Origin: Planoprotostelium fungivorum
Taxonomy: Eukaryota; Evosea; Variosea; Cavosteliida; Cavosteliaceae
DNA length: 64,000 nt
Assembly (NCBI GenBank): GCA_003024175.1
Contig: MDYQ01000071.1
Location: forward strand, 1 to 64,000
Direction: 5' to 3'
The notes beneath the pieces were generated by a model, which was not told the origin of the DNA, made no database searches, and worked only from the letters and a program-made list of their open reading frames with translations. Made by a program: the position numbers and the translations under genes. Positions 1 to 49,000 of this stretch are shown here, one piece after another; positions within the stretch are counted from its first letter, which is position 1; every line of letters begins with the position of its first letter.

Positions 1-3000
1 GAGGAGATCACATGATGAGGAGTGAGGAGAGTGTGGACCAGATTCTGTTCAGCCACGTAAGTCATGGCTCTCGCTACATCCCTGCCGCTATCGACAGGTC
101 AGATGACAGCCAACAAGAGATATTCTCACATCTGGAAGATGAAAGGAGACACTGAGCGAGATAGAGAAAAGGAGAAGAGACTGCCATCATTCATCCATTC
201 CATCATCATCCATTTGTCTATTCGGATGAATATGCAGCGTACGATTCGAACTCACCCGTAAGATTCTGACCGAGATATTGTACGATATTCGGATGATGCA
301 TGTTCTGTCCTCCGTCAATGTCTCGATCTCTCTCTCGCTTCACCTTCAGTTTCGTTGCTTCTTCCATCATTCTATGAATATCTTTGTCGAATTTTTTCAC
401 TGCTACTGTAGTCGTTTCATTGTGTACGGCCCTCCACACTTCTACGCCCTCACTATCAGCAACTTTCTCGATCAATGTTGTGATTCCATCCATCTTCGTG
501 TCATCTCTTGGCTGGTAAAACTAGATCCGGATTAACATGATCATCCATCACCGATCTGTTCACCTCTTGAGTCGAATTTCGACGTCGATGAATGATGAAG
601 GCCACCATCGCTCCGATGATAAGTGCAACACCCGCGGCACAACAGATGACCACGATCAGTGTACGTTTCTTGTCGTCTCTTTCTGCAGACCTCAAATCAT
701 CTGCCTCCGTTGGCCTCGAATTCTGTTCGATACCGATGGAGAAGTTGGTCAGATGGGTCGTCTGACAGATCGTTACGTTGCCGTCCATTACAGTCTGCAG
801 TCCATCTCTCGACCACTGCGATGCAGTCTCGCTCCAGTACTGACACACGGCATCTGTCTCTGTCGTCATTCTCTTCTCCGACTTCCATGTATATCATCAT
901 CATCCACTCACGATAGCCATCAGGTATCGAGTGAACACTGCCTATGGATATGTTGATGTACTGAGAGACACCATTGATAACCAGCTCTCTCCCTCTGTCA
1001 TCGTAGACGCTCACTCCCGTCACTGAACTGTATCTGATGGATTTGTCACGAAAATGATTCAAAATCGATGCCTCACATCGTGCTGTTGTAGATCGACACG
1101 AAAGGGTTGAATGATGCGATGAATAAGGCAACGGATACTGATTGAATGTCATCAACATGACAGGTTAGACAAGAATTGGTCACCTCGTGATGAGCTGGTG
1201 ATAGATGATATGAGGCTAACGGAGGTTCCACTATTCTGCACTTCGTTGAAGATAAGTGATTCCTCAGACGTGTTGTAAGATTGTAGATTGATCGATACGT
1301 TTCCGGTATCGTACGCAAAGGATGACGTGTTACGTAATAAGGCCTCTATTACGGCGGAAATCAATTGTACAGCCTATAATTCGTCACTATGGGTGTCTAA
1401 TTCTCGGTACAAACCCGTATATCGTTACCCTGTACTCCGACATCGAGAATGTTCTAAAATCGTCAATTTAAATCCATTTACCACATGCTCACCTTTGCCT
1501 CATTCTCCGATAAATTCGTCTGGCTATTGTAGAGATAATCGATCGCGTCACCATTACATGGATAATACTTGGCCACTTGACATTGGGATGGCAGAATGAG
1601 GAGAGGATAACATGCTATGGGATTATCCGCGATGAAGCAATTGCCAGTTATCTGTACGTATTCCACCCAAGTCAACTCGTTTCCGCTGAGATCTAAGGAA
1701 GATAGAGGTGCGAGCTTCGCGTCTCTTCCAGGAACGATTCCGTTGAGATTGTTGGCATTGAGGGACAGGAAAGATATGTTGGGCAGATTCATCAACGATG
1801 GAGGAATAGTACCCGTCAGGTTCATTTGGTTCTGCACGTCAAGAATGAATGAGTGTGATGGGGTGACGAACGACTCACGAGATTCAAAGAACTCAGATTT
1901 TGAAGGAGACCGATGCAAGAGGGAATAGTTCCACCAACGAGTGAGTTACCGTGGAGATCCACGTTCACCAGTGATTTCGCCTGACCTTTCTCTCGTGTCA
2001 TTTTTATCATGACATGTGATCACGGTTCGAAAATGGTAAGGTCGGACTCACACATTTCATCTGGTATCGTTCCGTTCAACCGATTACCATATAGATAAAT
2101 CGATCGGAGTGATGACATTCTGCCCACAGAAGCAGGTATCGGCCCAGTCAAGAGATTTGAACTCTGACTCGAATCAGAGAGAATCGCGTCTAAAATCTCC
2201 TCACCATGTCGATCCACTGTAGACTCTTCATGTCTCCGATGGAAGAGGCTATCGGCCCAGTGAACGAATTTCCGCTGAAATCTGCGGTGGTGAGATTTTG
2301 GAGCGAGCCGATTGTATCGGGAATCGATCCGTTGAGGTAATGGTTCGTATCCTGTTGACGTGTCAAACGGTTTCTTGTGGAGACTCACCAGGTACAATTC
2401 GGTCAGACCTTTGAGCTGATGGATGCACGAGGGAATACTTCCGGACAGATAATTCGTACCCAGATTGAGGTAAGTCAATTTCGTCAAATTACCTCGTTCA
2501 TTCAGTTCGATTTCATTCCATTCCCTCACAGATAGTGTCAGGTATATTCCCTTTCAAAGCGTTCGTTCCAAAATTGATCGACTGCAAGTTGACCAGATGA
2601 CCTATCGTGGAGGGGATCGTCCCTCCCATCACGAAATTGATGCTCAGCTGAGTCAGATTGACGAGGTCGCCGATGTGGTCATTCAATCTTCCCTTGAACG
2701 TTTGTCCGTGTAAGTTGATCGTCAGTGGTCGACAAGTCAACCCTACGTAGTCGGTCTTGTTACAGATCTAGGATGAGGTGTCAGAAGATCAGATGATGAG
2801 CAACGTCCGTACGTCTTCACCCCTCCAGAGCGATGGGTCACCTGCGATCGACATCAGGGTCATGCTATATACGATGGAGGAAAGAATGGCTGATGTTACG
2901 TGACAAGATGAGGTTCTCACCGATCAGATCTCGCCACACGAGCCGAAGAGAATCTGCTGTACTACACGCCGCATACATCACGTTACATAGCGTCGGTAGA

Positions 3001-3879
3001 GGTAACTCAGGATAGCATGGAAAGACCATGCCCGATAGATCGCAGGAAGAGGTGACTTGGATGTATCCCACCGACGTCAAGTTGTTATAGCTCAGATCTA
3101 AAACTTGTAGAGGCGACAGGGATGTATTTCTGGCTGAGATTGCACCGTTAAAGACATTCGAGCTGAGGTTGAGGAACTGCAAATTCGGTAGGGCTATGAG
3201 TTCTGGAGGTATAGTGCCAGTGAGGTGGTTGGAAGACAGATCGAGGCGTGTCAGTGATGTCAGTCCACCAATGCAAGATGGGATGACTCCTTGAAGAGAA
3301 TTCGATGAGAGGGTGACGTTGACCAAACTGACCACATCACCTATTCGCCACATTAGCATCAGGAACCATCGTCCGATGATAGGCAGAATGACGAAACTCA
3401 CAAAGGGAGTTCGAAACGTTTCCCCCAAATATGTTTCCCTCTAAATTCAAATGAGTGAGATTCCTCAGCTGCCACAGATTCTGCGGAATGGTCCCTCCGA
3501 CACCTTTGATGGTGAGAGACGCCAGGCTGGTAATGTTTCCGATGGAAGGATCGATAAAAGCGGTGGACGTGTAGTTGGGTGCGATGTAATTTAGTTCAAC
3601 TGGCCTGCCGTCACTGCAGATCAACCCTACAAAGTCGGTCTGATTGCAAAACTAGAATCAATCAGGTGGATCCTTCCGTGAATCCTCACATCTGCACCCT
3701 TCCAATAACTGGAATTACCTGAAGGTGAGGTCAACTCGATCGCGCTCGACTTGAACAACATGAACTGCCTCACCGTCCAAAGAAATCCATATTTGTTTCA
3801 GACTATTAAGTGTGTCTGCTTCCACTATCTCAACGATCAGAAGGACCAGCAGCAAGAATAGAGACAGTTGCAGCCTCAT
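1..3879 (-). CDS. LRR receptor A with GPS-like module and pseudokinase domain (cut at left edge)
   Basis: Predicted type I membrane receptor. The ATG at 3879 opens a hydrophobic signal peptide (MRLQLSLFLLLVLLIVEIV). An LRR N-cap follows (3.8-3.6 kb), then plant-type LRRs with repeated G-x-IP units, a second cap at about 2970-2700, and more LRRs to about 1.5 kb. Next comes a GAIN-like stretch and a GPS-like motif at 870-740 (CQYW, WSRDG, then THLTNF), one membrane helix near 660-590 ending in HRRR, and a kinase-like domain below 500. The VAVK lysine is present, but the catalytic loop reads HTLLTPHH (12-35), so the HRD aspartate is gone. It therefore looks like a pseudokinase. The DFG region and C-terminus lie outside the window. 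Many short GT-AG introns fall at LRR borders. Family and architecture are clear; ligand and signalling role are unknown. Confidence 0.85.
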
Positions 3880-3923
3880 GGTGCTCTGTTCGTCTTACCG
3901 GTAATTGACAGGCAGTCAGCATT

Positions 3924-4043
3924 TTACTCAAAATTGTCTTCCGTGGTGATTCTATGGTTAGGCGGCCGTGAAAACAGGAATCAGTTCTCAGTCGCTTTTC
4001 AAATGAAAAGATAAACGATGGATCGGAAGACAATTTTGAGTAA
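3924..4043. repeat. 20-bp perfect inverted repeat upstream of receptor A
   Basis: Arms at 3924-3943 and 4024-4043 are exact reverse complements, separated by 80 bp. They lie 45-165 bp upstream of the receptor A start codon. This could be a promoter or 5'-UTR hairpin, or the relic of a small insertion. Nothing similar was seen upstream of receptors B and C. Confidence 0.75.
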
Positions 4044-4533
4044 CGACGCTGCACGTTTCACAACGTCTGCTCTATTCTAACGACTGTCATCGGAACAAAG
4101 GGAACATCCGCGTACTTATATGTCGACAGGTGGGTTAAATGTGCTTACGACAGATTTTCCACGCAAACCGACGATTCCATCCTCTGTAGAGCTTGTTGAA
4201 AAACTGATGATACAAGCGGAGGCTTTACGGTCCCGGAACAAGTGTAACCCCTCCACTTACTTCTTCGGTTCTGAATCTCAGGTGAGATGACAACACAAAT
4301 CTCACAACCCGATCTCATCTTGTGAACAAGAAGTCTTCGACTTGAACATCGCTCGTCACGGAGACGGAGAAATCGACTTGTGCCATTTTCTTGACGGATT
4401 TTTGGCTGTCCACCTACTTCCAATCATCATCATTGTCGTATCTGACCGTCGTCAGTGGTGGATCATCTATCAATATCCGCGGCCACCATGTCCATAAAAT
4501 CATCTCGCACATGTCTCACAGTGGTAAGACATT
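4044..4533. other. Intergenic region between receptor A start and receptor B stop
   Basis: No convincing gene. A 92-codon minus-strand open frame (4145-4423) matches no domain I recognise and is taken as chance. The stretch must hold receptor A's upstream control region and receptor B's 3' end. The 12-mer TCCGCGTACTTA at 4107-4118 recurs at 9049-9060 upstream of receptor B. Confidence 0.5.
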
Positions 4534-7500
4534 TTATTCTAACGGTTGTTCACCGTACGGATCAAAGGATGAATCTTCGACCACCTTCTGCGACGCAGTT
4601 GCAGCTATTCTGGTCATCCTCTTTGCGATGGCGACAAAGTCCGGTCTCGCGCTCACGTCCGTGTCCGTGCATTCTTGTACCAGTGACTTCACTGTCGCTT
4701 CCCAGTCTCTCTCCACATTCACCGTAGACACTCTCTTCCGCGACTCTCGTTGATAGGTCTGCGAATAGTATGATCATGGATGGCGTCGTCTCACGATTGA
4801 TGCACACACCTGACTCTCTGCGTTCTTGCCATCACTGGCTATGAACGACAGCAGCAGTCCATAACTCCACACATCTGCTGCCTTTCTCTGTATGCCGCTC
4901 TCTCTCACTTCTGGCGCCTGCTGCATCTCAATGATGTCACTCGTCTTCTGCTTACCGTGTGACCTGCAGCCTTCTTGCGATACTTTGTGGCATCAGCCAC
5001 GCAATTACCGAAGCCTGTGATCTTGGCAATCATGCTCTCTTCATTCACTTCTAAGAGAACCTGCAGAACAGTGAGACGGAGATCGATTGAGAGGAAGGGT
5101 GATCACATGATGAGGAGTGAGGAGAGTGTGAACTAGATTTTGTTCAGCCACATAGGTCATGGCTCTGGCGACATCACTCCCTCTGCCGACACGTCAGAAG
5201 ATGCGTCTGATGCGATCGCTCACATCTGAAAGATGAAGGGAGATACAGGGTGTGAGAGAGAAAAAGAGAAGAGGCTACCGTCCTTCATCCATTCCATCAT
5301 CATGTACTTTTCTTCATCTACGTCAAACTTGACCATATCTGGATACTCACCAGAGATATTCTGACCGAGGTATTGTACAATGTTCGGATGGTGCATATTC
5401 TGTTCTCTATCAGCTTCTTTTCCTCTCTCTTACTTCTACCCTCAATCTCGTCGCTTCCTCTACCAGCTTACGTACATCTCTGTCAAATTTCTTCAATGCC
5501 ACTGTAGTTACACTGTTCTGAATGGCTTTCCACACTTGCGTATCTCTGCTACGGGCGATTAGATCCAATAGATCCATCTTCTCCTTCACTTGATCATCTT
5601 CTCTTTTCATATCGAACTATGATTACTGTCATCGTCTGTTCGTTCATCTCATGCTGATTCACCATTCGCGTCAATATCTTACGACGATAGATGATGATCG
5701 TAATAGATCCCACGATGATAGTGCTACCTACAGCACAGCAGACCATGATGATGATCAGTGAGCGTTGGTTTTCTCCATCTGGTGCCTTCGGTCCATCTTT
5801 CACGTTGTTATCTGCCTTCGGCTCGATACCGATGGAGAAATTGGTCAGATGTGTCGTCTGACAGATCGTCAAGTTGCCATCCACTACAGTCAGCAGTCCG
5901 TCTCTCGACCACTGCGATGTCGTCTCGCTCCAGTACTGACACACAGCATCTGTCTCTATCGTTACAATCTTTTGTTCTTGTTCTTCTTCTATGTGTAACA
6001 TGATCATCTTCAACTCACGATATCCATCAGGTATAGAGCGAACGTATCCCATAGAGATGTTGATGTATTGAGGGACATCGCTGATGATCAACTCTCTTCC
6101 TCTACCGTCGTAGACGCTCACTCCTGTTACCGCGCTGTATCTATGAAACATCAGATGATTCCATACCTTGGGATGAGACGGACTCACATGGTTGTGTTGT
6201 ACAAGGATCGAAAAGGATCGAACGATAACATTGTTAGGGCAATCGAAACTGATGCGATGTCATGGCCAATAGTGCGAATCGAATACCTTGTGATGATGTT
6301 GCAATGGAGGCAGGAATTGTGACGGAGATATCGGAGTTTGGGATCTTATTGTAGATGGAGGAAGTCTTCGATGAATTGTACGTCTGCAGATTGATGGACA
6401 CATCTCCAGCGTTGTAGATGAATGATGATGCATTCCGCAATAACGCCCCAATAATAGCGGATATTATCTTGGGAATCTACAATGCGTCAGTATCGTGTTT
6501 GATGATGAACTATTTAACCTGTGTTTCATTGGCTCGTATGTTTGTATCCAAGATAATCTGTCAAATATCAAATCATTCATCACTCTATTACGCTCACGTT
6601 CGCTTGTTCCTCAGACAATGTAACCCCATCCTCGTACAGATAATCGACTTGCTTTCCGTTGCAGGGATAAAATTGGATGACACCACATGGAGATGGTAAT
6701 ACCAATGGGGGATAACAAGGTATGGGATTATTGGCTATGGAGCAGGTGTCCGTTACGTTCACGTATCCCACGTATGAAAGGAGATTTGAGCTGAGATCCA
6801 TGAATGACAGAGGCGGCAGCTGAAGATCTCTTCCTGGCACCGATCCTCTCAGCCCATTGTTGTTGAGAGACAGAGAAGACAGATTTCGTAGATTCACGAG
6901 AGATCGCGGAATATACCCCGTCAGATTTAAGTGGCTCTACACTCGAGTCAATTAGATGCAGTACAGTTTAACGTCTCACCAGATCTAACACAGACATGTT
7001 CTTCAAATTTCCAATGCAAGAAGGAATCGATCCACCGAGGCGTGGAACATTGTACAGGTAAAACGTATTCATTGACGTCAGATTGCCTATCTCTCGTGTC
7101 ATTGAGAATATCATAGACCTATCATGCATAGAAGAGACAAACTCACAGATTGAATCAGGTAATGAACCGGAGAAATAGTTCGTATGGAGGCGAGTGATGG
7201 TGAGGTTTTGAAGTTGTCCAAAAATCTCCGGAATCGATCCATCTAGAAAATTAGTGTCCTGATTTTATGTCAGATGAAATCTCGATGAGATGTTACCAAG
7301 TACAATTCGGTCAGACCCTTCAGTTGACCGAGACAGGTGGGGATGCCACCGGACAGGTAATTCGTACCCAAATTGAGATAAGTCAAATTAGTCAGGTTAC
7401 CTTGTCAGTTCAGAAACGTATCATCAAGATGAATCGCTCACAGATGGAGTCTGGTATATTTCCACCCAAACGATTCGTCCCAAAGTTGAGATACTCTAAA

Positions 7501-8905
7501 TTGACCAATTTACCGATGGTAGTGGGTATGGTTCCATTGATGTTGTAATTGATGGACAGTCGCGTCAGATGGATGAGATCGCCAATATGAGGATTGAGTG
7601 TGCCAGTGAAAGCTTGGCTCTTCAGGATCATCGAAAGTGGTTTGCAAGTCAAGCCGACGTAATCAGTGCTGTTACAGATCTACCAAGGGGAATCAGTCGA
7701 TGAAGTGAAAGCTACCCCACGTACGTCTTCGCCCCTCCATAAAGATGGATTACCTGAATAATGATGTCACCACGATAATCGTATGAATTCTTATAGGATA
7801 TATTCTAACGCGACGCTGTGAGAAGTTCACCGTTGAGGTCTCGCCACACGAGCCGGAGAGAGTCTGCCGTACTACACGCTCCGTACGTCACCTCACATAG
7901 TGCAGAGATAGATAACGGAGGGTAGCATGGGAAGACCATGCCCGACAGATCGCAGGAAGAGGTGACCTGGATGTATCCCACCGACGTCAAGTTGTTAAAG
8001 CCCAGATCTAAAACTTGCAGAGGCGATAGAGATTTGTCTCTTTCTGGTACCGTACCGTTGAGGAAGTTTGAACTTAAGTTGAGGTAATGCAAGTTCGGTA
8101 AGGCCGTGAGCTGTTGTGGTATAATGCCGGTGAGCTGATTGGTTGACAGATCGAGATGAAACAAAGACTTGAGATCGTTGAACGAGGGAGGGAGGGGTCC
8201 TTCGAGCGCATTGTTATCCTGACCGGATTGAGAGAAAGAAGTGATGGAGTGTGAACGCCTTACCAATATCAACGATCGGAGGCGGTTGAGTTGTCCGATG
8301 CAAGATGGGATGTTTCCTCGCAACATGCTGGAAGATATACTAACATTGGCAAGACTAACTGCTTTACCTTGCATCTGCTTCAGAATGAACTCATCCAATG
8401 CTTCTCACAAATGGACTCCGAGATGGTATCACTTGCATTGTTGCTTGTGAAATTGTTATCGTTCAATGTTAAGTCGGTGAGGTCTTGCAGCTGCCACAGA
8501 CTGTCTGGGATTCTTCCACTGACTCCTCTAAGTGTAAGAGACGTGAGACTGGTGACATTTCCGATCAATGGATCAAGAGCAGCTGCTTTGTTGGGAGTAG
8601 AGGATGCTGTTGAATAAGATAGGCGGACTGGAACCCCGTTGGCGCAGACTATTCCCACAAAATCGGATTGATTACAGAACTGAAAGAGCGTCAGCAACTG
8701 TCATCCAGAAGTCGGCATCACATCTGTGCCCGTCCAAAGCGCTGGGTCACCTGAAATCGCAAGTCAGGTTTCATTGGTTCCTCTTTGTCGTACCTTTCAA
8801 TGACGCCCATATCTGTTTCAGAGAGCTCAATGTATCTGCCTTCACCGTCTGAATTGTCAAGAAGGTAAATATTAAGACCACCAGTGAACACCGTGAAACC
8901 TTCAT
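4534..8905 (-). CDS. LRR receptor B with GPS-like module and pseudokinase domain (complete)
   Basis: Complete paralogue of receptor A. The ATG at 8905 opens a signal peptide (MKVSRCSLVVLIFTFLTIQT). Two LRR N-cap/LRR blocks follow, capped near 8860-8640 and 7860-7660. Then come a GAIN-like segment, a GPS-like motif at about 5960-5840 (CQYW, WSRDG, THLTNF), a membrane helix near 5770-5690 ending YRRK, and a kinase-like domain to 4534. The beta-3 lysine is kept (TTVALKKF). The HRD loop is HTLLTPHH (5106-5130), and DFG is replaced by GFG (ITGFGNC, near 5020). The C-lobe ends with a conserved block carrying DVSARPDF. It appears intact but catalytically dead by known kinase rules. Its only close neighbours downstream and upstream are receptor A and UTP14. 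Confidence 0.87.
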
Positions 8906-9048
8906 CCTCTTGCTGATAATCGAACCTCCAATTTAGCGGTTAATCGGCTAAATTCCCGCGATAGTGGCAGGCAGCCCAGTATGAAACAAAGTACCTGCTT
9001 AAGCCCTCCAGCCGCGTCAGTTTGCCTTGTCAACGAAAGAGAAATAAA

Positions 9049-9060
9049 TCCGCGTACTTA
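9049..9060. promoter_or_regulatory. Shared 12-mer upstream of receptors A and B
   Basis: TCCGCGTACTTA is identical to 4107-4118. It lies 144 bp upstream of receptor B's ATG, and the matching copy lies 228 bp upstream of receptor A's ATG. It may be a conserved promoter element or residual homology from gene duplication. It also sits within 30 bp of the UTP14 stop codon. The function is inferred. Confidence 0.3.
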
Positions 9061-9073
9061 TGTCACCGTTGTT

Positions 9074-12000
9074 TTATTTCTTCCAAGTCGGTTTCTTTTG
9101 CTTGGCCAGACTCTCTTGCAATTTCTTCTCCTTGTTCTGCTTCAGTGTCTCGATGATGGACTCGTCCAGTGCTTCGATGTTTCTGCCGGGGAGGACCTTC
9201 AGCTTGGGCTCGATCATTCTCTCTAATTGTTTCGGTGTGTTTAACTCTCTGGCCAGAGGTGTTTCCATCTGTTTGTTGTGGAAAGAGGTCATGTTCTTAG
9301 GTACCTATGAACCGCATCACCATCCGATCATCATTTCGAATCGCATGATCCGATCATCTCGAAAAACAGGATGAAGGTGAAAGATGAGAAGGAACGAAGG
9401 ATGCTCACCACTGCGCGATAACGTTGCTGTCTAACGGCACCGAGAGGGTTGATGATGTGAGATCCGATCTCGGCCACCTGGAACAACTTCTCTGGTTTCT
9501 TAGCGGGTGGACGACGGTAAGACTTGATGCCTGATCCGGCCCAGCCACCCCAACCTGGTGGTCACGATGAGTCATCGGATGATGTGATCGTCCATCAACT
9601 CACCTGGAAGGAAGCTGTCATCGACAGGTGCAGGCTCTTTCGATTTTGCGTCTTCGTTCATGGCCTCCCTGCGATGTCCATCAGATCATGTCATCACGAT
9701 GCGACAGATGAAATCGATCGTGAGGGTGATGGCAAAGATGATGGATCAGGATCCGATCGTGTAGATGATCATGATGTGCGATGATCGTGATGAGATGGAT
9801 CTCGTGATGCAATGGAGGACTCACAAGAAATCGCCCTCGTAAGAGTCCATATCATCGCGGAAGGCTTCTTGGATGAGTTCCTTCTGGTTCGACGTAGAGC
9901 CCGACAGATCGAACTCGTCTCCCTTTGTCTTCTTCACTTGAATCATGGCATCTGGATCCAATAGAACCTGAATGTCACGATTGAGTCACGCGAGAGAAGA
10001 TGAGACGATCGACACTCACGGCCGATTCCGAAGTCCTCTTCTTTCTCTTCTCTCTCAGTCTCTCCGAATTGGTGACGCTCCTCTCCTTTTCCTTCTGTGA
10101 CATCCAAGGGTTGTTCTCTTGGTCCATGCCTTCTTCTCCTCCCTCACTCGTCGTCTGCCGTCATCAGTCCCACCACCATCATCACATCGTGATCGCATCG
10201 GATGACGATGATCACCTCTGTGGCGAACGTCTGATGCTTCTGCTTCGGTTCCGCCTTCTTCTTGTTCAAGTTTTCAAATTTCATCTCTAGATCTTCTCCG
10301 TCCGCTGTCTTTGCCTCCGTCTTCTTCTGCATCTTTCTATCGCGGCTCCTGGACTTATCCACCACCTTGAGAGGCTTGACGATCTCTTTGTTTTCTTCGA
10401 CTTTCGGTTGCCTCCTGTTCACCTTCTTCGTCTCTCCGTTGGGTTCCACCGACTTCGATTTTGAGACCTGAAGACTTGTCACACGTCACCTTCGTGTCAA
10501 AGTCAAATCACCTGCATCGTGGGCAGTTTCTCTTCACGTTCCACCGAAATTTCAGTGGATTTCGTCTTCGTTCCTCGGTTGGTCAATTCGATGCCTGTCG
10601 TGTCTGTAGATTCAACGTCAAAATGTCCCTCCAATTTGTCGACGTTCTTCTTCTTCTCTTTCGATGTCTTGATGGGTGCAGTATTCGATCGAAGGAGTAC
10701 CTGTGTTGTGATGAGCCATCACATCGGCGTGATGAAGATGATGAAGATGATGATGATGATGATGATCGCGAGTGTGATGATGAGATCACCTCGGATAGAG
10801 GGAGTTGGACGCTGGCGTCGACGATCTGTGATTTCATCTGTTGATCTTCTTTCTCGGCCTCCTCGAAATCATCTCTATCTGCATGCTCTGCATCCTGTCA
10901 CATGTCATCAGTTCACGATCATGATCATGATCATCGGATCATGAGAAAGATGGACTCACTTGATAGTCTCGAATCAAGGCTCTCTCCATGAACTTCATCT
11001 TGAACAGTTTGGCGCGCTTGTCGGACGAACCACCCTTTGTCATGTTCTCCAACTCTTCTCTGGCCTCCTCCATTCCCTTCGCTTCTTCCTCCTGATCGCG
11101 ATCAGATCATCATCAGATGTCATCATCATTGTGATCACGTGATCATGATGATGATCACGATCATCATATCACAAACCATGATGAACTAGATTCTCAACAT
11201 CACGTACCACAGAATCATCTTGAGAAGTGTGCTGCTTCTTTCTCAAGAGAGCCGCCTTATCTCTCTGCTCTTGTGCATTGCGAGAAGCATTCTTATCGTG
11301 GGCAATGAGATCTAGATACCGTTCAGTCTCCTCTCTCTCCTCTCCTCCTCACTCCTCGAAATCTTGGATTTCTTTGAATGTCTCAGCGTCATTCTCTCTT
11401 CGATTCTCAATTGTTCAGCTTTTCTTCTCTCTTCCGCAGCCAATTCGGGATCCAGCTGTAGGAGAGTTAAATTCGTTCTGAATAAAGGAGAAAAATTGAA
11501 ATGTCTCACCATCTCTAATTCTTCAATGGAGAGTTTGTTTTCATTGGCTGCCTTCAATTTTCTCCTCCTGTAGTCTTTCGATTTGATCTTGTTCTGCTGG
11601 GCCTGCTTCATCTGTTTGTAATACAGCATGTTCTTCATCTTCGCCAAGTTCTTGGCTTCCTCCTCTGCTCTCTTCTCTTCCAGCTGAAACCCATTTTCAA
11701 CACCATCCATCTTCAAACTCTACATCACCATAGGTAAAGTCAGCTCCGATCGATCCGTCTCTTGTAGCCCAGCATCTGCAGAAAATGAGTCGAAATTCCG
11801 ATGAAAACTCGCGGAAATTCACCCAGCAGAAGAGCTTGGATTTGCTTCTCCATGGGTGTGACGGCCTTCAGTTCTTTGACCTCAATGGTTTCCTTCAATT
11901 CACCGTGAGCCCTCAGTGGGAACCTATTACGGTCACGTGATCTGTTTCATAAGAATGAGACTCACACGGCACCCTTTCTCTCGATGAGTTGTGAGGCTTC

Positions 12001-13255
12001 CTCCCAGCGGGTGACAGAATCCTCTGCAAGCTGTGTTCTTATGTGAGAAATGAAATTCGATGAAAATCGTTTTAGAATGTGAATCAGGAACAGAACATAT
12101 ACAAAGTATGAAGAGAAGATAAAAGCAATCAAATATGATGGCGAGAGAAAAAAATGATGGAAAAAACGAAAGAGAATATCATGCAGATATAAATCATGGT
12201 TCGTTGTAGAGAGTCAAAGCTTCACCTTTCTGGCCTGTTGCTCCACAAATCTCTTCTTCTCAAAATCCGACATAGGTTTCTGTACAGCTCCCGCTTTGAT
12301 CAACGGCGTCGCCACCTGGTGCAGGATCTCCCTGTTTTCCGTGAGTTTTCACTCGAATCTCCACCACAACTACAACGGGGCGACGTTCGATGACTCACTG
12401 TCTCATCTGTGTGTTGGCATCTTTGATGAGATCACCGATGGCGAGGCGCCCCTTTCCATGCTTGGTCAGATTGAATTGATCTTCTTCGAACGCTTCGGTT
12501 CTGTCTCTCGCTGCAACTTTCTTGTTGGTCTCTGTGACCATGGAGGCCAGTTTCGTCAGTTTTAATTCTTTCGATCTCTCTGTATCGGAATCTTCATCGA
12601 GGTCATCTGAGACACGGTCAGACGCAGGCATGAGGAAGAGATGTTACCATCGTTGCGTCCTCCGAAATCAGCAAAGACATCATCCAACTCCTTGTCGATC
12701 TCATCTCTTTCATCTTCTTCAGAATCTTCAGAAGGCAGATCCATCATCTCGGATAGATCCATCATCTCTCCATCTCCTGGTTCTTCATCGTCTACTTCTC
12801 CCCTCTTACCAGACTTTCCTTCGAACAGACTTTGCCGAATGAGCTCGTCGTTTCAGCGAACAACACACCTTCTCAACTTCTCATCGCCGGAGCCAAATGC
12901 TTCTTCCTCATCGATCTCTTCGTCATCATCGTCAAACTCCTGCATTCTTTCAGTCAACAGATCAAGAGATGTAAAACACCTCTTCGTCGTCGCTCAGCTG
13001 CTTCTTCGGTCTCGTTTTCTTTTCTTTCACAACGATCTGTTTTCCCTTCTTTGATTTCTTGACATATTTCTCCTTTGGGCTCTTGTCATCCGTTGGTCTT
13101 CCTGCTCAAATGTGTGAGATGATATGTGATGTGATTCGATCACATATCATCTGACCTTTTGTCACAGGGCGACCACCTCTACCACCTCGAGCGCCTCCTC
13201 TTCCACCACGAGTGTTACCTCTCCCTCCTCTTGCTGCACCTCTCCCGGTTGCCAT
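9074..13255 (-). CDS. UTP14: UTP14-family small-subunit processome protein
   Basis: UTP14 is a nucleolar component of the SSU processome needed for 18S rRNA maturation. The middle part carries the family pattern of a lysine-rich block with NKIKSKDYRRRK (about 11600), followed by EERMTLRHSKKSK (about 11400). Near the C-terminus are a tryptophan/glycine segment (PGWGGWAGSGIKSYRR, about 9540) and a conserved FHNKQMETPLARELNTPKQL block that matches the family's 'TPIG..WN' region. The N-terminus from the ATG at 13255 is an RGG-type Gly/Arg-rich tract, followed by acidic Asp/Glu runs around 12600-12950. I chose this start because the RGG tract follows directly; a longer in-frame start near 13363 is less likely. 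The gene sits between two receptor genes, with no obvious functional link to them. Confidence 0.8.
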
Positions 13256-13444
13256 CTTGTTTTTGTTTCCCGTTTCATTCCTTTCCGGAAAATGACGTCT
13301 ACAACGACATTGGCTGTCGCAGCTTTGTGGTGTGATGCATGGAGAAAGACACAGCATGATCAAATGATCTTGAATCTAATCGATGAGTCGCTCTATTCAT
13401 AACTATACTATGCAACAGCCAATCGGTTTATCATCCATCGTCCA

Positions 13445-16400
13445 TCATCGCATGCGGTAGGGATCAAGAGCGGAAGTTGGTCTGGCTTGTTTCTTAGACG
13501 ACAAGACTTCCTCTCTCGTCATTCTCTTGGCGATAGCAACAAAGTCCGGTCTCGCGCTCACGTCTGTGTCCGTGCATTCTTGTACCAGTGACTTCACTGT
13601 CGCTTCCCAGTCTCTCTCCACATTCACCGTAGACACTCTCTTCCGCGACTCTCGTTGATAGCTCTGCGGATCGTATGATTATGGATGATGTCGTCTCATG
13701 ATCGATGCACACACCTGACTCTCGGCGTTCTTGCCGTCACTGGCTATGAACGACAGCAGCAGTCCATAACTCCACACATCTGCTGCCTTTCTCTGTATGC
13801 CGCTCTCTCTCACTTCTGGCGCCTGCTGCATCTTAGCGGCATCACTCGTCGTCTACTTACCGTGTGACCTGCAGCCTTCTTGCGATACTTTGCGCCATCA
13901 GTCACGCAGGCACTGAAGTTTGTGACCTTAGCTGTCACGCTATCTTCTGTGACATGCAGAAGAACCTGAGACAATGAGATGAGAGAGGAGAAAGAGGAGA
14001 TCACTCGATGAGGAGTGAGAAGAGTGTGGACCAGGTTCTGTTCAGCCACGTAAGTCATGGCTCTCGCCACATCTCTGCCGCTGATGATACGTCAGTATGT
14101 CTCGTGATAGGATAAGATTCTCACATCTGGAAGATGAGGGGAGATACAGGATGTGAGAGAGAAAAGAGAAGAGGCTGCCATCGTTCATCCATTCCATCAT
14201 CATGTACTTTTCTTTTCTCTCGTCAGTTTATCTCTATGTAGTTCTCTCACCAGATATGTTCTGACCGAGATATTGTACGATATTCGGATGATGCATGTTC
14301 TATTCTCTGTCAATTCTTCTTCTCTTTCATCTCACCTTCAGTCTCGTCGCTTCCTCTACCAATTTACGCATATCTTGAACTTTCTTCACCGCCACCGTAG
14401 TTGTTCCATTGTGCACGGCCCTCCACACTTGTGTGGCTTCTCCCTGAGCAATCATCTCGACCCACTCGACCTTCTCTTCCATCTCCATCGTTTCATCTTG
14501 CACGTGAAACTGTATCGTTCTCGATCAGATGTATGACGATGAGTTTCCACTCACGTTTCTCCTCGCGCTGCGACGTCGATAGATGATGATTAATGCGATG
14601 GCACTGACCAGCAGAAGGCCACCGGCAGCACAGCAGACGATGATGATGATCAGATTACGCTTATCGTCTCCTTCTGTCGATCTCAGTCCATCAGCTGTGA
14701 CGGGCCTCGTCCCGTATTCGATGCCGATGGAAAAATTAGTCAGATGTGTCGTCTGACAGATCGTCAAGTTGCCATCTACAACGGTCCGCAGTCCATCTCT
14801 CGACCATAGTAATGAAGTCTCGTTCCAATACTGGCACACTGCATCTGTCTCTATCATTATTCTCTGTATTCGTCTACGTACATCATCGATGGTGACTCAC
14901 AATGGTCGTCAGGTATAGAATGAAGGGTTCCCATGGATATATTGATGTACTGAGAGACACCATTGATGTCCATCTCTTTTCCTCCATCATCGTACACACT
15001 CACTCCTGTCACTGAACTGTATCTGCATAACAAATGAGGAATGACCTGCTGATGATAGCTCACATCGTAGCATTGTAGACGGATGAGAAGGGGTTGAACG
15101 ACAGCGACGTAAGAGCGACAGATACTGTTCGTCATCAGCCATGTCTATGTTAAATCAACCTCGTTACCTCTATTGGAGGCCGTGATGGAGGATGGAAGGG
15201 TGGCTGAGATCTGACCGTCTACGATCTCGTTGTAGATGATGCCCTGACCCGTATAGGTCTGTAAATGGATGGAAACGTCCGAAGCGTTGTAGATGAATGA
15301 GGAGGTATTACGCAGTAGGGCTAATAGGATGGCGGATGTCAATTGTACGGCCTAGTTCTGTCAATTCCTCTTCTTGTGCATCGGTTCACCTCAGTGCCTC
15401 TATCGTTCTTTAATCTGAGATCCAGAAAGACCTGTCATCCTTCAATTCGATGCGTTTTCCACTCTTCACCTTGGCTTGATCGGGTGTCAATCGAGTGTTA
15501 CCGTCGTACAGATATTGCAATTCTGTATTGAGAGTGCAAGGGAGATATTGAATGATACACTGTCCATAAACAGGCAAGATCGGAAGACATGGGAAAGGGT
15601 TCCCGCTGTAATCGCAGGAGCCTGATACAGGGAAGTTTTCCACGGAGGTGAAATTGTTGTAACTGATATCCAGTGTCTGTACGGGATAGGCAAAGTAACC
15701 TTTTCTTGCTGGTAGCGTTCCGTTGAATTGATTGTGGCTGATATTGAGGGTTTGTAAACCGAAGGAGCTCACCAGATTTGCCGGTACAATTCCAGTCAGA
15801 CGATTATCGCTCAAATCCACGATTGACAAGTAGTAACTGTACGTCTGTGATAAAACCCCCGTCAGCTGGTTGTGGCTGACGTTCAGTGTGTACAGATAAT
15901 TGAAGCCGTCCAACACGATCGAGCCACTCAGGCGGTTGCTCGATAGATCTAGAGTCCTCAAAGTCGAAAGAGTACCGAGGAGAGAGAACGGGCCAGTCAG
16001 CTGATTTCCCGAGAGATCGATCTGAGCGATGGATCTACTGGACATGTTGATGAGCGTGCCATTGATGCGATTGTTGGACTGTTGGATGTGAGATGACTGA
16101 TGACGTCACACGACGTCACCAGGTTCAGAATTTCGATACCTCCGTAGGACTCCATGCAAGGGGGTATCGGACCGTACAGATCATTATCATTCAGATAGAG
16201 GTTCATCACGTTCGTCACGTTGCCTGACACGATCAGAAGATCACACAGACAGACGACTCACAGATTCCATCAGGTATGACACCACTCAGACGATTGTTAT
16301 TCAAGGCCAGCTGTCTCAACGAGATCGAGCGATCGAATGATGGAATCGAACCGTTCAGCCAGTTTCCGCTCTGCGAGAATGAGCGGTGAATGGATTGAGG

Positions 16401-18410
16401 ATCTCACCAAGTTCACATCGGAGAGATAAGCCATCTTCCCTAGGCAAGGTGGAATACCGCCCGTCAGTTGATTACCACTCAAGTGCATGATACTCAATTT
16501 GGTATTACCTTCGATGAATCATAAGGCGCATCCGTGAATCACTTTCACAACGTGACTCACAGATCTCATTGGGAATCGATCCACTCAGGCTATTGTTGTT
16601 CAAATTGAATGTACTCAACGAATTGAAGCCAGCTAAGGAGGGTATCGATCCGTTCAAATGGTTCACACTCTGTCTTGGATCAGGAAGATGAATGAAGCGA
16701 CGCAATTTCACCAGATCGAGATTTACAAGTGTACCGAGGTTGCCGATACACGAAGGTATCGGACCTGTCAACAGATTGCTTGATAGATCGATCGTATTCG
16801 CAAATTGGCCCATGTTACCTGGATGGAATCAGTGTCCATCACCTCTATTCATCCTTACAGATCGAGGCTGGTATGACACCGGTCAAGTGATTGCCCGACA
16901 GATAAAGATAATTCAATAAAGGGAGCTGAGATGGTATCGTTCCATTGAGAGAGTTGTCTGACTGATGAGATTGAGCAGAGAGGAAGAAGATGAGTCGTTC
17001 ACCAATGTAAGAGTGCTCAAGCTGGACATGTTGCTGATGCACGAAGGAATTGAACCGATGAGTTGGCATCCGCTCATTTCCACGTTAGAAATTCTCTGCA
17101 ATCGACCTGTATTTGTCACATTGCAGATCATCATTACATCATCGATCATCATGGACGTTGATCGATCAGCATGATGTGTCCACTCACACAGCGTATCTGG
17201 AATCGTTCCGTTGAACAGATTGCCACCCAGATTTAAAGAGAAGATGTTTTTCAGGTCACCCAGTGATGCCGGTAGGGAACCAGTCATCCTATTTTGGTTC
17301 TGTATGTCGTGAGGACAAGAGATTTAGAGAAAGTCATTCACCAATAGCAGGACGCTGAGAGAATTCATATTCCCTATGCACGAAGGCAGCGAACCTGGAA
17401 TGACATTCTGTGATAAGTCGAGGTCTCGTAACGACTGAAGGCGGCCTAGATCATCATTCAGATCTGATACGTAGATTTTCATCTTCGATATAAATGAGTG
17501 CGGGAGTATATTTATCATGCATGCAAAAGAAGAGAAAGCTCACAGATGGAGTCAGGTATGGATTGATTCAAGCCATTTTGTTCGATGTAAATACTCTGCA
17601 GAAATCGAAGATCACCAATGGAGTCTGGTAAACCTCCCCATAATAGTCGATTGAAACTCTAATGATAATGAGATGGATCCACGATGTCTGTCATTACCAG
17701 ATTGATGGTGGTCAAATTTGTTTTGCCGATGGAGGATGGTATGGGTCCGCTGAGCGGATTGGCATACAATTGAAGTTTGGTCAGTTGAGTGAGATTTCCG
17801 ATGCATGAAGGAATGGGACCGGTCAGCTGGTTTCCGCTGAGGTCAAGAACAGTCAGCTGTTTCAATGTACCTTTGGATCATCAGAAATTCTGTTCAGAGG
17901 GTTCATCATGAATGATAAATCATCTTGATTCTCACAGATGAATTGTGGAATAGAGCCATTCAATCTGCCTCCTCCACCGTTCAGAATCAAGGTATTTAGA
18001 TTGATCAGCTGACCGACGCTCGAAGGAATGGGACCGGCGAGATTGCTGGAGCTGATGGAGAGAGATTGGAGTGTTGTGATGTTACCAAGAAGAGGACTCA
18101 AAAAACCTGGTGGACGCTGTTGGTAGAGCAGCTCGATCTTGATGGGATTGAGAGCACCGTCGCAGGTCACACCGACAAAATCACTCGCATTACAGAACTG
18201 AAAGAGGTCAGAAATCCTCTTCATCATCATCGTCTCCTCACGTTCGAGCCGACCCAAAGAGATGCATTTCCTAATCGGCCTCAATCCTGACTTTGAAAAC
18301 ACGATCTCACCGTTCAAGGCCTTCCATACTTCTTTGAGAGAAGTCAGGGTGCTCCCTTCCACCACGACAGACGAGAAGATCAGAAAGACGATGATTGCCA
18401 CCCGATGCAT
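13445..18410 (-). CDS. LRR receptor C with GPS-like module and pseudokinase domain (complete)
   Basis: Third paralogue, complete. The ATG at 18410 opens a signal peptide (MHRVAIIVFLIFSSVVVEGS), followed by a single LRR cap (CNASDFVGVTC). A long LRR array of G-x-IP units follows, each exon covering about one to three repeats, down to about 15.4 kb. A GAIN-like segment, a GPS-like motif (CQYW, LWSRDG, THLTNF, about 14850-14720) and a membrane helix ending YRRR (about 14640-14580) follow. The kinase-like domain keeps VAVKK, an APE-type motif (QAPEV) and ADVWSYG. It lacks a glycine loop, reads HTLLTPH at the catalytic loop (14005-14034), and has NFS in place of DFG (AKVTNFSAC). Unlike A and B, it shows only one LRR cap. 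Ligand and pathway are unknown. Confidence 0.86.
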
Positions 18411-44814: not shown

Positions 44815-46018
44815 TTTCTTCGGTGATGTGATGTTTTGTGTTGGAACGCGAATCTTTCCGTTTTATTCTATTTTATTGTACCTGACGTTCAGATTGATAA
44901 ACGAAGGTATCACAATCCCTCCTCTTTATCGCACCCACAGCAACTGCCTCTCACCAGCTGCTACGTCTCGTTCGTTTCAGAATATGAATATTCATATGGA
45001 TGTTCACCTCTGGTTGTAGTGCTGTGAGAGTTGACAGCCGGCCAGCCGGCCGCCCTCCAAAACAGACGACCGGCGGTAGAAGATTACGATGGTCACCTCA
45101 TCATTTATACATCCACACGACAACAACAAGAGGAAGAAAGAAGATGAGACAAAAGGAGATACTTGTACAGCAGCAATCCACCAGAGTCCGTACGCATAAT
45201 CAAGGAGGTCTTGCTATCGACGGTGGTCGATGCAGCGAAACGAAGCGTGAAAGACGACACAGACGACATCACGCCTACTTCAGAGTACTCTTACCCAGGG
45301 CGATTGAGGGGAGAGAAGACAACATTGAGGAGACCAACTATCAGCTGGAAGACTTCATACAGCAAGATGAATCTTTTTGGGAGGCCATCTTTGACCAATG
45401 AGAATGGAATAGATCCATATGTTTTTAAAACAAATCGTCTTTCATCTTATAGAGGTTTTCTATTTATCTTCTATATGATAGTCTGATTGTCTCCACGTGG
45501 TCCCTTTGAAGTCCATACAATGTCTCGTGATGGACAATCAGACAGGCTTCCCAGTCCATTTATTCTCACATCTTACCTCCTCTTCCAATCGCCATCATAA
45601 CCTTCTGTCGTGCGACTGGATTGACGATGTGTTAGTGTCTCTGCCGTCTGTCATTTTGTCCAGTTTTATTTCATCTCATTTACAACGCGCCAAACAATTA
45701 GGCGGCCAGAAGCTTCTGGTGTTAATTTTCCGAGATCTAAAGTCTCCGCTGTACTTTTATTAACCGAAGGCCCCCTTGCGCCGACTTCTCATCCTGCTTC
45801 TATGAACAGACGTCCACGATGTCAGGATGTGGTATGGATTCTATATGGTGCACCACCACTCGATTGAATACCCCACCTCCCCCGGGCTATTGTCACAACA
45901 TACCGAGAGAGAAGTTGGCTGCTTGCGTTTGCGTTTAACAAGTCAGTTCTCAGCGACATCCCTACTTCTGAGGGAAGTTCAACCTTCACCATTATTTTCA
46001 GAATCCCACGCCGCAAAG
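44815..46018. other. Long spacer with ambiguous open frames
   Basis: About 1.2 kb upstream of the P-ATPase gene. Two overlapping plus-strand frames span 45000-45486. One starts at an ATG (45000 or 45144) and ends with an acidic tail ENFIQQDESFW-like at 45401. The other lacks an ATG and ends at 45486. I cannot choose between them, so no gene is called. A GCCGGC-rich palindromic cluster sits at 45039-45052. Confidence 0.35.
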
Positions 46019-49000
46019 ATGGGAAGGAAGGAGAAGAAAGAGAAGAAGCAAGAGTACGAGGCTCACCTTCAGACAGTGGAAGAGGTGAACACCGTCATCG
46101 TGATGGCGCGTCGGTGACGATCTCACAGGTCATCGCTCACTTTGAGACGGACGCCACATCAGGACTGCCGTCAGCCGACGCCCAACAGAGGCTGGAGACG
46201 AATGGAGCCAACAAGTTCGATACATCGGGTGGTAAGACGTGGTACGGCATCCTCGCTACGCACACGTTCAACTTTATGAACCTCGTATTACTGGTCGCCA
46301 TGGCCCTCTCTTTCGTCGTGGTGTCTTTCATCGACGCGGGTGTCGTCATCTTCGTCATCATCACCAACGCACTGATCGGTTTCTCTCAAGTGAGATGACG
46401 AGCGACGTCCACCACCTTCTGAAACTCGACAGGAATGGTCGTCCGAGAAGACGATGGCGTCTCTTCGAAACATGTCCACGCCCACTTGTCAAGTCATTCG
46501 AGATGGACAGGTCAAAGACATCGAGTCGACCGATCTCGTCGTGGGAGATATCGTGGTTCTTGAATCGGGAAGAACGGTTCCAGCCGACCTTCGAGTTACG
46601 GAGGTGATCATTTCCACCATCGATTACCGACTGACTATTATAGACGAACGACCTGGAGACGGATGAGGCGATGTTAACCGGAGAGAGTGATCCGGTCGTC
46701 AAGACCACTACGCCACTCACCACAGAGGGAGATGAGGTTAGACGGTTTGAATGCATATAGATTGACCTCTCCAGATTCCACTGGGCGACCGAAAGAACAT
46801 GATGTACATGAGTTCGGGCATCAGCAAAGGAAAAGGAAGAGGAGTTGTCATCAGGTCCGATGAATCACATCGAATCACATCAGCTGACATCGCATCAGAA
46901 CCGGAAACTCCACCGAAATCGGAAAGATCGCCAAGACTCTCACGAAATCTCAGAAAGGAAAGACTCCCCTCCAAAAGGTAATCCATCACCGTCATCATCA
47001 TCACCCCACCTGAAGCATCATTAGAGATTAGATCGACTGGGTATCCTCCTCTGCATCGTCGCGGTCATCTGCATCGCCATCGTCTTACTCACCGGATGGG
47101 GTTGGAGGACGTTCTCCGTCTACCCCGAAGGTCTTCGCGTCGCCGTGGCAACTGCAGTAGCCGTCATCCCTCAGTCCATCGTTGTAGTCGTCACTTTGAC
47201 TCTGACTGTGGGAATAAAAGCCATGGCCAAGAGGAATGCCCTCGTGAGAAAGTTACAGGCCGTGGAGACGGTGGGAAACGTCATGCACGTGTGTTCAGAC
47301 AAGACGGGAACTCTCACAGAGGGTAAGATGATGGCCACCAATGTCAGGTGCGATGTTCGTCGAAATTTGGAATATTTTTGACCCATTGTAGATTGTACAA
47401 CGGACACCGGTTCGTTGTAGAGGGACACGGGGTGACACCGGAGGGTGACATCCGAGACGAAGAGAACAACGTGGTCGACATCGACTCGAACTCTGTTCTC
47501 AGACGCATCATCACCATTGCATCACTCTGCAACATGGCCACCGTAGACAAAGTGGAAGAGGTGGAAGAACCCGAAGAGAGACCGAGAGAGAGCGACGTAG
47601 TTCGTGAGACCGAAACTTCCAACCGAGAGAAACGAAAAGAAAGAAAGAAGAAGGAGAAGGAAGAGAAGAAGAAAGAGCCAAAGAAGGAAGAGGGAGCTGG
47701 TGGACAAGAGAAGAAAGAAGAAGAGACACCGGAAGGTTACGCCACGTCTGGTTCACCCACCGAAGTGGCACTTGTTGTCCTGGGAATGAAGGCTGGGCTT
47801 TCGAAGGGAGATCTCACCGAGTTTTCGCTCATCTCGGAAAATCCGTTCGATTCTACGATCAAGAGGATGTCGACGGTCTACAACGGACCGGAAGGGAGGA
47901 TTTTGTTCATCAAGGGAGCACCCGATTTCATCAATCGTGAGGAAAGTTTGAGACGATGAAGTTGACGAGAGACAGCTTTGTGCGTGAATGCCGTAAAGGG
48001 AGACGAATTGACGGACGTCGAGCCGTTAGATGATGAGAAGAGACAGAAGGTGAGATGATGTCATCATCACACGATGTTCTACGTCACATATCGTCATGAT
48101 GGTCTCATCATCTTCGCGATCACCACGTGACTGACACTTTAGATGCGTGAACTGAACAAATCGATGGCGAGCGAAGGCCTTCGAGTCTTATCTCTCGCCT
48201 TCCGCATCGATCCACCCGACACCGAGAGCCGCACTGACATGGAACAAGATTGCACTTTCGTCGGACTCATCGGAATCCGCGATCCACCCAGGGAAGGTGT
48301 CCCAGAAGCCATTGCGACGTGTCACCGAGCGGGGGTGGTGGTACGTAGGCGAGTTGTAGATGGAACGTAACGTACGTACAGGTACACATGGTGACAGGTG
48401 ATCATCCGTTCACGGCGAGGGCCATTGCCAAGCAGATTGGAATCTTACCGTCGCACTTGTCGGATGAGATGACTGAGAAATTGGTTATGACGGCGACGAA
48501 ATTCGACAAATTATCCGACGAAGAACTGCAAGGCCTCAAGAGTTTACCTCTGGTCATAGCAAGGTAAATGCATGAATATCTATCTGCACAATTGTATTTC
48601 ATGAACGTCTTTCTCTGATGCAAACGTGACCATCATCACGACACCATCATGAGCATCTTCTTATCTGAAGCAGATGTTCTCCCGACTCGAAAGTGAGAAT
48701 GGTCACGGAATTACAGAGAAGAGGACAGACCGTAGCCATGCTGGGAGATGGAGTAAACGATTCACCTGCCATCAAGCTATCTGACGTCGGCATTGCCATG
48801 GGTAAGAACGGTAGTGAGGTCACGAAGGAAGCTGCCGACATCGTCCTACTGGGTGAGTCGCACATGCGCGAGCATCTGCGAAGGCTGACGCATCGCAGAC
48901 GACAATTTCGCCACGGTGGTATCGGCCATTCGAGAGGGAAGAAAAGTCTTTGCCAACATCAGAAGATCCGTCATCCATCTCCTCTGTGGTAATTTCTCGG

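Follow-up and report, generated by a model that had tools for sequence, protein, structure and literature searches.

Three paralogous receptor genes of Planoprotostelium fungivorum combining plant-type LRRs, a GPS motif, a single membrane helix and a pseudokinase

A 64-kb window of the Planoprotostelium fungivorum genome (the whole stretch of DNA analysed here, positions 1 to 64,000 of contig MDYQ01000071.1) carries on its minus strand three paralogous receptor genes, A, B, and C, in which plant-type leucine-rich repeats (LRRs) are joined to a GAIN-like region with a GPS motif, a single membrane helix, and a kinase-like domain whose catalytic residues have been lost. Judged by its sequence, from which the architecture, the GPS match, the cleavage-linked residues, the selection, and the loss of kinase residues were all read, this is a real, repeated, and selected domain combination, and apparently a new one. 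The receptors are probably cleaved into two chains, and the explanation that we favor, with moderate confidence, is that of self-cleaved two-chain single-pass LRR receptors with a pseudokinase. A preliminary description of the region had assigned them to positions 501 to 15135; this span is too short, as gene C starts at 18410. The window is eukaryotic DNA, and the studied genes have short GT-AG introns:

1 to 3879, minus strand: gene A, same architecture as gene B; 993 amino acids visible, as the window edge truncates the gene within its kinase-like domain
4534 to 8905, minus strand: gene B, complete, 23 exons, 1120 amino acids; hand-spliced, all introns GT-AG
13445 to 18410, minus strand: gene C, same architecture with a single longer LRR array; start at 18410

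Each spliced protein opens with a signal-peptide-like start and the LRRs, continues with about 140 GAIN-like residues and the GPS, and closes with one helix and the kinase-like domain. Pfam LRR_8 was matched with 120.8 (A), 91.0 (B), and 113.0 bits (C), and PK_Tyr_Ser-Thr with 93.1 bits in B and with 46.2 and 32.0 bits in the incomplete domains of A and C, respectively (cut-off 23.1); for the gene C protein, the Pfam search covered the first 1064 residues. Gene C furthermore matches a ComC-type LRR model (34.3 bits, cut-off 27), and the nine NCBIfam matches of gene B, all far under their cut-offs, reflect generic LRR or kinase similarity. A hydropathy scan detected an N-terminal hydrophobic stretch and only one further membrane helix per protein (residues 830-848 in A, 813-831 in B, and 944-962 in C, placed by hydropathy only), which begins 29 to 30 residues past the HLT threonine of the GPS. 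No 7tm Pfam match was obtained up to an E-value of 0.1, and a single hydrophobic helix follows the GPS in the whole gene B and the partial genes A and C. In three spliced genes, Pfam and hydropathy therefore bear out the preliminary description, according to which the LRRs are followed by a GPS, a single helix, and a kinase-like domain. The plan of an LRR receptor kinase, i.e., an LRR ectodomain, a single helix, and a kinase-family cytosolic domain, is complete in B and partial in A and C, and membership in the adhesion G-protein-coupled receptors (GPCRs) or the polycystins was rejected because only one helix is seen. The LRRs form two blocks in A and B, each after a cap-like W.G...C segment, and one long block in C; the two blocks with their own cap-like segments versus the one in C may reflect an internal duplication or the loss of a part of the ectodomain.

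The splices were set by hand as GT-AG junctions with the three paralogs as mutual guides, and they replaced automatic models containing wrong splices. The introns of the three gene models measure 35 to 98 bp, and their positions and phases agree across A, B, and C in the GAIN, GPS, helix, and kinase parts, an agreement that is partly built in because the copies guided the splicing. This built-in agreement is the point in favor of a very unlikely alternative, namely that LRR-GPS proteins and kinase-like proteins are separate neighbors that were fused by the splicing model. It is opposed by the finding that the GPS, the helix, and the basic stretch after the helix share one open exon in each gene and that the kinase-like exons directly follow in all three. 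The end of gene C (approximately 13445) was read by eye, and its spliced model stops at 14121.

The motifs CQYW, WSRDG, and C-x-T-x-HLTNF (present as CQTTHLTNF), which had been noticed just outside the membrane helix, were found on the minus strand of all three genes, and the coordinates originally given for HLT proved to be exact in each of them:

747 to 755, minus strand: HLT of gene A, codons 755-747
5843 to 5851, minus strand: HLT of gene B, codons 5851-5843; predicted cut between Leu and Thr
14738 to 14746, minus strand: HLT of gene C, codons 14746-14738
726 to 845, minus strand: GPS of gene A (Pfam GPS)
5822 to 5941, minus strand: GPS of gene B, CQYW...WSRDG...CQTTHLTNFSIGIE, within one exon (Pfam GPS)
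14717 to 14836, minus strand: GPS of gene C (Pfam GPS)

A hidden Markov model search of the spliced proteins with the GPS profile PF01825, which had been suggested beforehand as a check, was significant for all three, with 33.8 (A), 33.8 (B), and 31.5 bits (C) against a curated cut-off of 22.5 and with E-values of 5e-8, 4.9e-8, and 2.5e-7; the scores rose to 36.2, 36.7, and 34.4 bits, respectively, when only the juxtamembrane region was used. In the juxtamembrane alignment, CQYW, WSRDG, and the 16 residues TICQTTHLTNFSIGIE are identical in the three copies. The trio of CQYW, WSRDG, and HLT occurs at no further site in the 64 kb, and the sole other loose match to the GPS pattern (63186-63212, minus strand) has no CxYW beside it. 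The shortness of the motif and weak PDB matches would fit a chance or convergent resemblance unrelated to GPS. Such an origin is extremely improbable in view of E-values from 4.9e-8 to 2.5e-7 over profile positions 2-44 of 45 in three genes, to which one cysteine pair, the Trp, the Gly, and the position just outside the membrane can be added. The GPS match exceeds chance.

The catalytic H-X-S/T motif is HLT in all three copies. According to parts of a 2026 study (PMC13062082), H-X-S/T is insufficient, and receptors that cleave additionally carry a Phe or Tyr stacking on the His, e.g., F803 of ADGRL1, whose full-length variants F803Y and F803W cleave fully, while F803L and F803A are reduced and purified ectodomains with F803Y or F803W cleave slowly. 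The same parts describe a Gly right before cysteine S12.50 as strictly conserved in cleaving human receptors. All three receptors retain the corresponding Gly, namely that of WSRDG. The stacking aromatic (S10.49), which we equate with the third residue of CxFW, is the Tyr of CQYW in all three copies and is aligned with the CVFW Phe of ADGRG3 and ADGRG1, a position assigned by alignment and not by structure. As aligned, the residues linked to cleavage (HLT, aromatic, and Gly) are present and invariant among the three copies.

The first and third GPS cysteines are likewise kept, whereas the second (S12.50) is Leu and the fourth, two residues before the His, is Thr in each copy; in gene C, the first cysteine hinges on the splice acceptor chosen. 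As GPS cysteines pair 1-3 and 2-4, these two replacements remove both partners of one of the two usual disulfides, and the two-disulfide arrangement of the human adhesion GPCR type was found in none of the three. Two splicing details touch the same region. In gene C (14839-14900, minus strand), splicing at the A/B acceptor would create an in-frame stop, and the model takes an acceptor farther downstream, beside the GPS, reading HLCQYW. In gene B, the intron right before the GPS (5956-6018, minus strand) has 63 bases, is in frame, and is stop-free; if it were retained, 21 additional residues would separate the GPS from the last strand upstream, and cleavage might be altered in such an isoform.

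The aligned regions upstream of the GPS are 57-61% identical among the paralogs:

846 to 1453, minus strand: GAIN-like region of gene A, upstream of the GPS (paralog alignment, dN/dS)
5942 to 6557, minus strand: GAIN-like region of gene B, exons 6557-6519, 6476-6287, 6248-6188, and 6134-6019 and the start of 5955-5663
14837 to 15431, minus strand: GAIN-like region of gene C, upstream of the GPS (paralog alignment, dN/dS)

Ratios of nonsynonymous to synonymous divergence (dN/dS) were calculated pairwise according to Nei-Gojobori with Jukes-Cantor correction, with three pairs per region. They amount to 0.08-0.14 in the GPS (40 codons; dS 0.31-0.77), 0.12-0.21 in the GAIN region (134-140 codons), and 0.11-0.25 in the kinase N-lobe (71-72 codons), compared with 0.26-0.54 in the last LRRs and cap (67-79 codons) and 0.41-0.79 in the stalk and helix (49-50 codons). 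Five of the 15 dS values exceed 1.5, and the respective ratios are therefore rough. Constraint is maintained on the cleavage module and on the kinase N-lobe while the spacer drifts, as would be expected if a folded module sat on a passive spacer.

The cytosolic kinase-like domain that had been predicted is present, but its catalytic HRD and DFG residues are lost, and this is the main change to the initial picture:

9 to 475, minus strand: kinase-like domain of gene A, comprising the N-lobe and the beginning of the C-lobe; the window ends just past HTLLTPHH
4537 to 5565, minus strand: putative pseudokinase of gene B (Pfam, CSK alignment); Lys of VALKK and APE kept
13445 to 14458, minus strand: kinase-like region of gene C, HTLLTPHR, NFS for DFG, APE kept; frame lost inside

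In a PDB search with the cytosolic part of gene B, CSK was the best match (E 2.9e-15, query residues 35-253 of 276), and the 60 best of 1100 matches are mostly tyrosine kinases with CSK first, a ranking by similarity and not a phylogeny. In the alignment with CSK, HTLLTPHH sits on HRDLAARN and GFG on DFG. Gene B keeps the Lys of VALKK, a Glu in EEATRL, and APE, and its glycine loop is degenerate. HRD is replaced by HTL in all three copies (HTLLTPHH or HTLLTPHR), and DFG is replaced by GFG in B and by NFS in C, the two copies in which this site is visible (that of gene A lies beyond the window). An active receptor kinase was rejected on these grounds. Since the HRD aspartate is lost in three of three and the DFG aspartate in two of two visible copies, the cytosolic domain is, by its residues, a pseudokinase, which we take to satisfy the usual criteria for this term.

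The same losses would be expected if the cluster were decaying, i.e., if former receptor kinases had lost catalysis and were becoming pseudogenes, and gene C adds to this suspicion. Its kinase exon starting at 14211 (14121-14211, minus strand) leaves the A/B reading frame, although later kinase exons are recognizable by reading, and a shifted acceptor is needed at its GPS; gene C may therefore be broken or carry an assembly error. Decay of the whole cluster is nevertheless improbable, because gene B is open across 23 exons and dN/dS is well below 1 in the GPS, the GAIN region, and the N-lobe for all three pairs. The identical HTLL in the three copies points to an inherited, working pseudokinase.

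Several observations weigh against the reading of A, B, and C as self-cleaved receptors. No GAIN profile was matched even at E-values up to 10, with the qualification that HMMER filters discard weak matches. The PDB matches to GAIN domains of adhesion GPCRs are weak and reach no farther than a single strand upstream of the GPS: a single sequence retrieved ADGRG3 with an E-value of 0.011, with unrelated fluoride channels already from 0.17, and a three-row profile retrieved ADGRF1 with 0.028. AlphaFold gave mean predicted local distance difference test (pLDDT) scores of 43.4 for the GAIN piece including the translated 63-base intron and 43.9 for the GPS exon alone; both low-confidence models of these partial contiguous pieces contain beta strands, and neither is usable. 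Of the GAIN/GPS-like module announced in the preliminary description, the GPS was confirmed in all three genes (PF01825), and the GAIN part, with no profile match and pLDDT values of 43-44 for partial pieces, is a putative fold. In addition, gene C represents either decay or an assembly error.

The main rival is a GAIN-like module that has kept a structural role but lost the ability to cut, leaving a single chain in which the GPS region would serve as a rigid linker or strain sensor comparable to ADGRB2. According to the portions of PMC13062082 cited above, initial cleavage of ADGRB2 amounts to only about 2-4% despite its HLS, and ADGRG5 remains uncleaved in COS-7 cells even though it has HLT. 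The loss of one GPS disulfide in A, B, and C points in the same direction. However, the aromatic and the Gly, both of which are missing in ADGRB2, are invariant in the three copies, and the His and Thr are unchanged though synonymous sites of the GPS differ (dS 0.31-0.77). On balance, we regard an uncleaved module as rather unlikely.

For the self-cleaved receptor that we favor, the following course of events is the most likely. The receptor would be made as one chain, fold, and cut itself once in the secretory pathway between the HLT residues Leu and Thr. Of the two products, the N-terminal chain would comprise the LRR sensor and most of the GAIN-like fold (783 amino acids in B, including the signal peptide), and the C-terminal chain would comprise the TNFSIGIE strand, a variable spacer, one helix, and the pseudokinase (337 amino acids in B). 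Both might stay together non-covalently via the GAIN-like sandwich until a ligand or a pulling force on the LRR part releases or shifts the N-terminal chain, whereupon the membrane chain could change its clustering or the allosteric contact of its pseudokinase with a partner kinase or adaptor. Such an output is proposed because the receptors have neither a seven-transmembrane (7TM) core for a tethered agonist nor a catalytic kinase; both trigger and output are conjectural. The TNFSIGIE strand after the predicted cut is invariant in A, B, and C, but since this strand would at the same time belong to the fold, its invariance is no proof of tethered agonism.

The receptors share with adhesion GPCRs a GPS just outside the membrane, HLT, the aromatic and Gly near the site, and a large ectodomain, and the strand after the cut (TNF...) presumably resembles the Stachel of that family. 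They have, however, one helix and not seven and one GPS cysteine pair and not two, and they are further distinguished by a cytosolic pseudokinase, plant-type LRRs, and a variable spacer between strand and membrane. The Polycystin-1/suREJ family comprises many-helix proteins with other domains and lacks the LRR, single helix, and kinase order. With A, B, and C, it has in common a GPS module on a receptor outside the classical adhesion GPCRs, as stated in part of PMC13197933. The single-pass variant of Drosophila Cirl is, according to the same excerpt, a one-helix product of a GPS-family gene, but it stems from a 7TM gene, and a kinase-like domain is unmentioned there (PMC13197933). Plant and protist LRR receptor-like kinases (RLKs) and LRR receptor kinases resemble A, B, and C in the LRR array with an N-terminal cap-like segment, the single helix, and the domain of the PK_Tyr_Ser-Thr family, whereas the GAIN-like/GPS region between LRRs and helix and the loss of the catalytic residues set the three receptors apart. 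GPCR-kinase fusions of choanoflagellates, oomycetes, and amoebozoans also join protist receptor modules to kinases, but they have seven helices, and a single-helix GPS form is unmentioned in the excerpt of this survey (PMC12716839).

Parts of the same 2025 survey report that GAIN and 7TM are encoded by other, separate genes in diverse non-holozoans (PMC12716839), and if the source of our window is such a non-holozoan, genes A, B, and C show what a separate GAIN module can attach to. Amoebozoan family 2 GPCRs are reported to lack GAIN domains (PMC10445921). The word GPS is absent from an account of 916 LRR-RLKs (PMC13091385), from a study reporting that several receptor-kinase lineages gained LRRs independently (PMC3268121), and from PMC4053784 and PMC4758236. 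Among the open-licence literature matches listed, an LRR-GPS-single helix-kinase receptor was not found by title and start of the abstract, and the earlier statement that no class with this order has been described is uncontradicted within this set. Pattern searches for relatives returned 22 stretches in viral contigs and 22 in prokaryote genome contigs, none of which was confirmed.

With respect to the remainder of the window, a Utp14-like open reading frame (11312-11719, minus strand; 37.2 bits, cut-off 30.2) lies between genes B and C, and the receptor array is thus interrupted by an unrelated gene. Pieces of a P-type cation ATPase (54.9 and 52.5 bits) and of a 1,3-beta-glucan synthase (123.8 bits) are located at 45868-47956 and 61914-62462 on the plus strand. 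Rfam yielded no matches in the window at gathering thresholds.

Work on self-cleavage by GAIN/GPS has centered on 7TM adhesion GPCRs and polycystins, in which the freed strand is interpreted as an agonist acting on the helix bundle. A one-helix GPS receptor without a catalytic kinase would separate two proposed uses of cleavage, i.e., the tethered agonist and the detachable sensor, and would be an example of GPS cleavage feeding into an LRR receptor of plant style. We tentatively propose, at somewhat less than even chances, that a class of two-chain LRR receptors of its own has arisen in a eukaryote lineage, and that these receptors cut themselves and signal through a one-helix pseudokinase once the sensor chain is removed. 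If such a lineage-specific class exists, GAIN/GPS cleavage would be a general route to force- or ligand-released receptors that is untied from 7TM tethered agonism.

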